Shown: positions 17,432-22,308 of the stretch, one piece after another
How the letters are laid out: each line of letters starts with the position of its first letter
Position numbering within the stretch: position 1 is the first letter of the stretch
Assembly: GCA_016125275.1 (NCBI GenBank)
Contig: WGMB01000010.1
Location: 124,001 to 188,000, forward strand
Direction: 5' to 3'
Source: Acidobacteriota bacterium
GTDB taxonomy: Bacteria; Acidobacteriota; Terriglobia; Bryobacterales; UBA6623
Length of the DNA: 64,000 nt
Translations under genes and position numbers: made by a program
The notes under the pieces: model-generated
What the model was told of the DNA's origin: nothing
Seen by the model: the letters and a program-made list of their open reading frames with translations, nothing else
Database searches by the model: none

Positions 17432-20979
<3,548 letters not shown>

Positions 20980-21000
20980 GATCGGCGCCCGCCGCTCGGA

Positions 21001-21006
21001 TACAAT
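21001..21006 (+). promoter_or_regulatory. -10-like TACAAT inside the gyrB terminator
   Basis: TACAAT (5/6) overlaps the first bases of the terminator's left arm. A start about seven bases downstream would give an mscS transcript lacking most of that arm. Confidence 0.4.
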
Positions 21007-21045
21007 CCTCCTGCAAGCCGCTCCTTGCAGGAGGATTCTCTTTTT
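21004..21045 (+). terminator. Intrinsic terminator of gyrB overlapping the mscS ribosome-binding site
   Basis: A perfect 14-bp stem (21004-21017 with 21024-21037) and 6-base loop (CCGCTC) are followed by CTCTTTTT. The right arm contains AGGAGGA (21029-21035), which is the Shine-Dalgarno sequence nine bases before TTG 21044. The same hairpin therefore both ends gyrB transcription and masks the downstream ribosome site in read-through RNA. Confidence 0.85.
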
Positions 21046-21937
21046 GATCGACGAAATTCTTTCGCGCCTCGACGTCGAAGCCCTCGCGACCCACATCTTT
21101 CAGTCCGTCGTCGGAGCCATCCCCGATGTCGTCGTGGCCATCGTCTTCCTGATCGGTTTCTGGGCGGCCTACAAGATCAGCCAGCGCCCTCTGCGCGCGG
21201 CGCTGCACGCCTCCGGCTTCCACGAGACCCTCATCAAGATGATCGTGGACAACGTCTGGCGCTACACCGTCCTCGGGTTCGGCATCATCATGGCGGCCGG
21301 CCAGCTCGGCGTGAATATCGCCGCGGCCCTGGCCGGCATCGGCGTCGCCGGCATCGCCATCGGCTTCGCCGCGCAGGACACCTTGTCCAACATCATCGCC
21401 GGCTTCCTGATCTTCCTCGACAAGCCCTTCATGGTCGGCGACTGGGTCGAAGTCGACGATCAGATCGGCGAGGTCTCCGAAATCACCATGCGCACCACGC
21501 GCATCCGCACCAAGAAGAACACCTGGGTCGTCATCCCCAACAAGACCATCATCGACGAGGTGCTCGTCAACCACTCCCGCAAGGGCGACACGCGCATCGA
21601 CGTACCCGTGGGCATCGCCTACAAAGAGTCCATCCCGAAGGCCCGCGAGGTGCTGCTAGCTTCCGTCCGAGGTATTGGCGGGATCGTGGCTGAACCGGCG
21701 CCCCAGGTCGTGGTCACCGGACTCGGCGCCTCCAGCGTCGATCTGGAAGTGCGGGTTTGGATCGACAAGGCCTCCAACGAGCCCCCGATCGCCTGCGCCA
21801 TCGTCGAAGCTGCCAAGGTGGCCCTCGACGCTGCCGGCATCGAAATCCCCTTCCCCCACCTCCAACTGTTCGTCGACGACGTGAAGGAGCCCGTTTGGGA
21901 AGGGCTGACGGCGCTGCGCAAACCCGACGCGGCCTAG
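21044..21937 (+). CDS. MscS-family small-conductance mechanosensitive channel
   Basis: A 297-residue MscS-like channel. Three membrane segments occupy about residues 20-110: PDVVVAIVFLIGFWAAY, TVLGFGIIMAAGQLG and the pore helix NIAAALAGIGVAGIAIGFA with its Gly/Ala packing pattern. AQDTLSNIIAGFLIFLDKPF and GDWVEV begin the cytoplasmic beta domain. It would release solutes on hypo-osmotic shock. TTG 21044 has a strong AGGAGG at nine bases, but that site lies in the gyrB terminator stem. The stop overlaps the convergent gene's stop through a shared CTAG. Confidence 0.9.
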   Translation: MIDEILSRLDVEALATHIFQSVVGAIPDVVVAIVFLIGFWAAYKISQRPLRAALHASGFHETLIKMIVDNVWRYTVLGFGIIMAAGQLGVNIAAALAGIGVAGIAIGFAAQDTLSNIIAGFLIFLDKPFMVGDWVEVDDQIGEVSEITMRTTRIRTKKNTWVVIPNKTIIDEVLVNHSRKGDTRIDVPVGIAYKESIPKAREVLLASVRGIGGIVAEPAPQVVVTGLGASSVDLEVRVWIDKASNEPPIACAIVEAAKVALDAAGIEIPFPHLQLFVDDVKEPVWEGLTALRKPDAA

Positions 21938-22308
21938 GCGCCGGCCTGTCGCGCCTTGCGGGCGGCCACGAAGCTCTGCACGCACAGCAACACGAACACC
22001 GTGCACAGCGCCGCCATCACGGTCTGCGCGATCACGGCCGCCGGCCGCTCGGCCTCGCCGCTCAGCAGCGCCGGCAACTGCATCAGCCCGTGCGCGGAGC
22101 CGAACAGCCCCAGCAAAGCCACCGTCGCGGCCCCGTGCATCGCGTGCATACGCAGGCTCTCCTTGCGGGCCAGCCAGCCCAGCAGGAACAGCACGACTCC
22201 GAAGCCGGCCGGAATCAGCGCCGTCGGGCTCTGCTGCCCGGTCAGCGCCCAACCGCCGACCCCCAGCGCGATCAACAAAGAGCCAAAAGTCATTGCCATG
22301 CCGGACAT
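21934..22308 (-). CDS. Small four-helix membrane protein of unknown function
   Basis: A 124-residue integral membrane protein with about four hydrophobic segments: FGSLLIALGVGGWALTG, ALIPAGFGVVLFLLGWLA, HGAATVALLGLFGSAHG and AQTVMAALCTVFVLLCVQSF. A basic loop (RKESLRMHAMH) lies after the second. Similar short proteins occur in several phyla, but I know no function. ATG 22308 lies 6 bases after a TAGGAT on its strand. It is convergent with, and overlaps by four bases, the MscS-like gene. Confidence 0.65.
   Translation of the reverse strand: MSGMAMTFGSLLIALGVGGWALTGQQSPTALIPAGFGVVLFLLGWLARKESLRMHAMHGAATVALLGLFGSAHGLMQLPALLSGEAERPAAVIAQTVMAALCTVFVLLCVQSFVAARKARQAGA

Follow-up and report, generated by a model that had tools for sequence, protein, structure and literature searches.

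What does a hairpin do when it lies in the 64-nt gap between gyrB and the gene that follows, mscS, sharing bases with a candidate −10 box on one side and holding the ribosome site of mscS on the other? This arrangement was encountered in an Acidobacteriota bacterium, in a window of 64,000 nt (contig WGMB01000010.1, positions 124,001 to 188,000 of the forward strand) to which all coordinates refer. Read directly from the sequence, the junction has the order TAG(20979)-GATCGGCGCCCGCCGCTCGGA-TACAAT-CCTCCTGCAAG-CCGCTC-CTTGCAGGAGGATT-CTCTTT-TTG(21044). An initial annotation had described it as a 14-bp hairpin 3′ of gyrB, with AGGAGG in the right arm and TACAAT covering the start of the left arm, and this anatomy is confirmed. 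The stem (21004-21037) follows the gyrB stop, its 14 pairs are all Watson–Crick and enclose a 6-nt loop, the AGGAGG lies entirely within the right arm, and three bases (AAT) are common to the TACAAT box and the left arm (Table 1).

The downstream gene encodes a channel protein with the transmembrane 2/3, beta and C-terminal domains of the MscS family all present (PF21088, PF00924 and PF21082, each above its Pfam cut-off). Its TTG start is backed by a 58%-identical orthologue in G001, a genome of the same family and another genus, which has a GTG start at the homologous codon. On the other side of mscS, a 124-aa membrane-protein-like gene without a Pfam match (21934-22308, reverse strand) is convergent with it and overlaps its last 4 bases.

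Table 1. Features of the gyrB-mscS junction (window coordinates)
Feature	Position	Strand	Description	Basis
gyrB	18541..20979	+	Co-directional gene upstream, possible source of read-through RNA	ORF; Pfam DNA_gyraseB, DNA_gyraseB_C, Toprim, HATPase_c
TACAAT	21001..21006	+	Candidate −10 box for an mscS promoter	TANAAT enrichment; without recognisable −35
Hairpin left arm AATCCTCCTGCAAG	21004..21017	+	Bears anti-SD CCTCCT	Sequence, fold
Transcription start of the short RNA (predicted)	21012..21016	+		6-10 nt past the −10 box
Hairpin loop CCGCTC	21018..21023	+		Fold
Hairpin right arm CTTGCAGGAGGATT	21024..21037	+	Holds the entire SD	Sequence, fold
AGGAGG	21029..21034	+	mscS Shine–Dalgarno (SD)	9-nt spacing to start codon
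CTCTTTTT	21038..21045	+	U-tract, displaced and merging with the TTG start; weak as a terminator signal	
mscS	21044..21937	+	MscS-family mechanosensitive channel, TTG start, 297 aa	Pfam; start as in the G001 orthologue

The hairpin is exceptional for its genome. The 43-nt element 21001-21043 folds at −23.6 kcal/mol (z −6.0), a value reached by none of 200 shuffles. Perfect arms of at least 14 bp around a loop of 3-10 nt occur at four sites in 864 kb of the same genome, whereas two Markov replicates contain none. The inverted repeat is present once in the 7.55-Mb genome, with no further copy even at 3 mismatches, which rules out a dispersed or REP-like element. A scan of 20850-21200 against Rfam, up to an E-value of 1, gave no relevant match, only one chance tmRNA fragment far below the cut-off. 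A dimeric repressor could bind to a 34-bp inverted repeat that overlaps a −10 box, and the palindrome would then be a DNA operator. This is very unlikely, since perfect 14-bp arms enclosing a loop of 6 nt are a usual feature of RNA hairpins and not of operators, the genome lacks a second copy, and the repeat found at the same place in G001 differs in sequence.

A more familiar reading, and the one adopted in part by the initial annotation, is that of an intrinsic (Rho-independent) terminator of gyrB. On this account the SD would fall in the right arm through the shortness of the 64-nt gap, and mscS would be expressed from an ordinary promoter or by residual read-through. The likeness is real: a stable GC-rich stem (14 pairs, about −23 kcal/mol) is followed by a T-rich stretch with six Ts in eight bases, the junction is flagged by a terminator scan, and a terminator too would insulate mscS. 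The T-tract that had been announced is indeed there, with five Ts, but it starts 3 nt after the stem (tail CTCTTTTT), being displaced by CTC and merged with the mscS start codon. Such a displacement is still compatible with termination, but a d'Aubenton-Carafa-type score is borderline, ranging from −18.9 to +14.8 with the choice of stem end and the reading of the T-score. Other long hairpins of the genome score higher in a similar calculation (some with padded tails), and the G001 hairpin scores below zero on every reading. Comparison with relatives points the same way. In several genomes of the family's largest other genus, gyrB is followed, where the flank is readable, by an apparent small convergent membrane-protein gene, and the flanks read in these mscS-less members contain no such hairpin. 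Because gyrB directly precedes a similar gene there, mscS appears to have been inserted between the two, and the hairpin seems to go with mscS rather than to be a conserved terminator of gyrB. Termination would also leave unexplained why a whole SD and part of a −10 box lie within the hairpin. Thus, of the terminator claim the stable GC-rich stem stands but its role is probably weak, and a mainly terminating function is doubtful.

The putative −10 box is credible, because its motif is enriched upstream of genes in the same genome. In a sample of this genome (1835 genes in 2.46 Mb, predicted with a home-made codon-usage caller, so that starts are approximate), TANAAT occurs within 60 nt of gene starts 101 times in sense and 30 times in antisense orientation. 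At 30-39 nt from the starts the counts are 19 and 5, and the mscS box lies at 37 nt. A −35 box for mscS, sought in the upstream windows, reaches at most two of six matches; a good −35 is likewise missing from most TANAAT sites of the genome, 19 of 98 having one with at least 4/6 matches, against a background of about 10%. As a separate observation, TANAAT peaks 5-14 nt ahead of predicted gene starts (42 of the 98 sites within 60 nt, in the window and L069-L188), and in the same DNA many genes have no recognisable SD. Together, these two features suggest that many mRNAs of the organism are leaderless.

How strongly the stem masks the ribosome site was estimated as the cost of opening the SD within a 60-nt leader, for the 345 strong-SD genes of the own-genome sample. 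With 17.3 kcal/mol, mscS ranks first of 345; the next gene stands at 12.3 and the median at 3.7. None of 1035 trials in which leaders were swapped between genes reaches 16 kcal/mol, and the observed masking is never attained when the 22-nt spacer separating −10 box and SD is shuffled 2000 times. SD masking as a general habit of this genome is ruled out, the opening energies of the 345 genes being equal to those of leader-swapped controls.

The initial annotation had further proposed that the SD is locked in read-through RNA and exposed in RNA starting near 21013, and the computed energies bear this out. In read-through RNA, 15.9 kcal/mol are needed to free the SD (18.3 if the RNA is cut at the −10 box), and in the fold computation its mean unpaired probability in the long RNA is 0.00. 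When the RNA begins 6-10 nt downstream of the −10 box, 3.2-4.1 kcal/mol suffice to open the SD, close to the genome median. There, GCAAG/CTTGC closes a small hairpin, with the SD just 3′ of it and weak competing pairing remaining. The difference between read-through and own-start RNA, 12.7 kcal/mol, is the largest among the 29 genes with TANAAT and SD sampled, the next being 5.0. As the gyrB stop is 25 nt upstream of the stem, a terminating gyrB ribosome should not melt it, judging from footprint size. Overall, the earlier interpretation is partly supported: the masking switch, as computed, is exceptional, and a start near 21013 and translation from the own promoter alone are predictions.

Collectively, sequence, fold, energetics, genome rank and enrichment of the −10 motif support as best explanation a functional mask on the mscS ribosome site that is gated by the transcription start, as in gene e of phage T4. 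This putative mechanism has, in our judgement, about an even chance of being correct. RNA reading through from gyrB would hold both arms and form the 14-bp hairpin with the entire AGGAGG inside, so that it would yield hardly any channel protein. Transcription initiated at the TACAAT box would begin within the left arm, at about 21012-21016, and the resulting RNA, devoid of the anti-SD bases, would offer an SD no harder to reach than in an average gene. Synthesis of the channel would thereby be uncoupled from gyrase transcription, and the hairpin may in addition slow or partly terminate read-through. What we infer from the sequence is where transcription starts, that the promoter is active, that read-through RNA exists and what the mask is for.

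A mask can also be conditional. It would then silence every mscS RNA, also one from a start further upstream, until temperature, a protein, an antisense RNA or ribosomal protein S1 opens the stem. Switches of this type usually work by SD masking, and the stem is complete in any RNA begun before 21004. However, typical RNA thermometers are far less stable than a perfect 14-bp stem of −23 kcal/mol. Since, moreover, Rfam offers no match, no alternative pairing partner is seen nearby and the candidate −10 box is placed exactly to bypass the stem, a switch of this kind is quite improbable.

Is the layout kept in other genomes? In the order, represented by 257 genomes, the gyrB-mscS gene order is shared by G001 alone, and a search of these genomes for further gyrB-mscS junctions found none beyond those of G000 and G001. 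Samples of 399 genomes of the class and 396 of the phylum, which overlap, contain no further close mscS orthologue at an E-value of 1e-60, a threshold that distant copies would escape, and a scan of genome contigs found only distant MscS relatives. The G001 junction reads TAGAATCC, with a stem TCCAGGGGC/GCTCCTGGA of different sequence and GGAGGATT before the GTG start. It thus retains a −10 box, an SD and a different hairpin at the same place, and the element folds better than its shuffles (z −2.6; 3/200 as good). The masking itself is weaker: only half of the SD lies in the stem, the opening cost is 7.8-9.2 kcal/mol, and 549 of 2000 shuffles reach 7.8. In the comparison of relatives proposed by the initial annotation, all three elements are thus present in G001, with a masking typical of shuffles. 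The layout recurs in the two genomes sharing the gene order, and selection for masking is conjectural. The mscS orthologues of G046 and G050 sit elsewhere and do not have the junction layout. On the reverse strand of L044 (G046), an NhaA-like gene is separated from the mscS orthologue by a strong hairpin, CACCGGCAG...CTGCCGGTG, and the likely SD of this orthologue (AAGGAA before ATG) is outside the stem.

The same layout was also sought before other genes. Across the order, TANAATCC...GGAGGATT is matched 46 times, versus 3 in a reversed control, a poor control for the co-occurrence of −10 box and SD; the matches are mostly ordinary promoter-plus-SD leaders, and some appear to lie inside coding sequence. 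In 67 −10/SD/ATG leaders of the order, masking equals that of permuted controls and CC follows the −10 box at chance level too, 7 times versus 4.9 expected, so that SD masking as a habit of the whole order is ruled out. With the stricter pattern TANAATCCTCC...GGAGGATT, the 399 class genomes yield the gyrB-mscS site alone; this sample is without G054, G181 and G228, in which the order scan found the pattern as well. Among the order's −10/SD leaders, the two extremes belong to IS200-type transposases (Y1_Tnp) in L209 (G181) and L218 (G228), with 19.5 kcal/mol each, and a third case, in G236, stands at 13.5 kcal/mol. In the two transposase leaders, TAGAATCCTCCTC...GAGGAGGATT-ATG, the −10 box overlies the left arm of a strong stem that masks the SD, as in mscS, but the genes are unrelated to mscS; the similarity of the leader sequences is accounted for by −10 and SD consensus plus pairing. 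Both tnpA leaders are located at about position 1500 in gene orientation, and the transposase frame of L218 ends early (92 aa). Transposases need protection from outside transcription, as known from IS10 and IS50. Two further leaders were seen in passing. An MscL-like gene in L195 (G065) has the same layout in its leader TAGAATCCCCCGAGAAGGAGGATTCCATCATG, where the SD is moderately masked (10.6 kcal/mol), and in L205 (G135) TATAATCCTGTGATCGCATCTACGATCGGAGGATTATG precedes a 307-aa ORF (start MQKITPHLWFDKEAREAAELY), with a hairpin of −19.3 kcal/mol that begins at the −10 box and includes the SD. In related bacteria the layout thus also precedes other genes, transposases in particular.

The order-wide data bear on a last and simpler view, that an ordinary short leader happens to have a complementary −10 box and SD. 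The chance level of masking across the order, the shuffle-typical masking of G001 and the expectation of one extreme case among many leaders read all speak for it. Chance is nevertheless unlikely, given that the mscS masking was reached in 0/2000 shuffles and 0/1035 leader swaps, that the element folds at z −6.0 and that a hairpin of other sequence occupies the same place in G001 (z −2.6).

If the start-gated mask is real, a chromosomal gene uses the trick of T4, whereby the transcription start decides on access to the ribosome site. A potentially harmful channel would stay silent in read-through RNA, and RNA-seq coverage over such a gene would not predict its protein. Other cases could be sought by a simple rule, namely a stem that masks the SD and whose left arm is overlapped by a −10 box. 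It is tempting to go further and to propose a two-level device, in which the RNA hairpin blocks translation from gyrB read-through while the same palindrome, extruded as a DNA cruciform, removes the −10 box and makes the channel promoter responsive to supercoiling. Gyrase sets supercoiling and osmotic stress changes it, and a stretch of 46 bases would in this way couple an osmotic safety valve to the topology of the DNA. This extension is highly speculative and has only the slimmest chance of being true.

Masking of a ribosome site against foreign transcripts has precedents. In the transposase leaders of Tn10/IS10 and IS50 the ribosome site is buried, so that outside transcription yields no protein, and the 5′ arm derives from the terminal repeat of the element. 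The tnp leader of the insertion sequence ISPpu9 likewise buries its ribosome site, which is released by an antisense RNA (PMC8450116). The mscS leader resembles these structures in burying the ribosome site but differs in that no mobile element is seen at gyrB-mscS. A literature search for masked SDs in read-through RNA turned up no report. The closest parallel is the leader of T4 gene e (lysozyme), reviewed alongside soc, 49 and I-TevI: RNAs from upstream promoters occlude the SD by folding, and late promoters located in the DNA of the stem's 5′ strand give RNAs that avoid this and are translated, with a reported 100-fold effect and comparable arrangements in phages related to T4 (PMC3014915). 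The two systems have in common an SD sequestered in upstream-derived RNA, by computation for mscS; the T4 promoter in the DNA of the 5′ arm, whose RNA lacks that arm, would have its counterpart in the candidate TACAAT box. They differ in that the T4 late promoters (TATAAATA) depend on a phage sigma and serve timing, whereas mscS has a sigma-70-like candidate −10 box and a predicted start, on a bacterial chromosome, before a channel gene behind gyrB. The masking mechanism is therefore already known, and its use by a cellular channel gene downstream of gyrB would add a new, chromosomal case.
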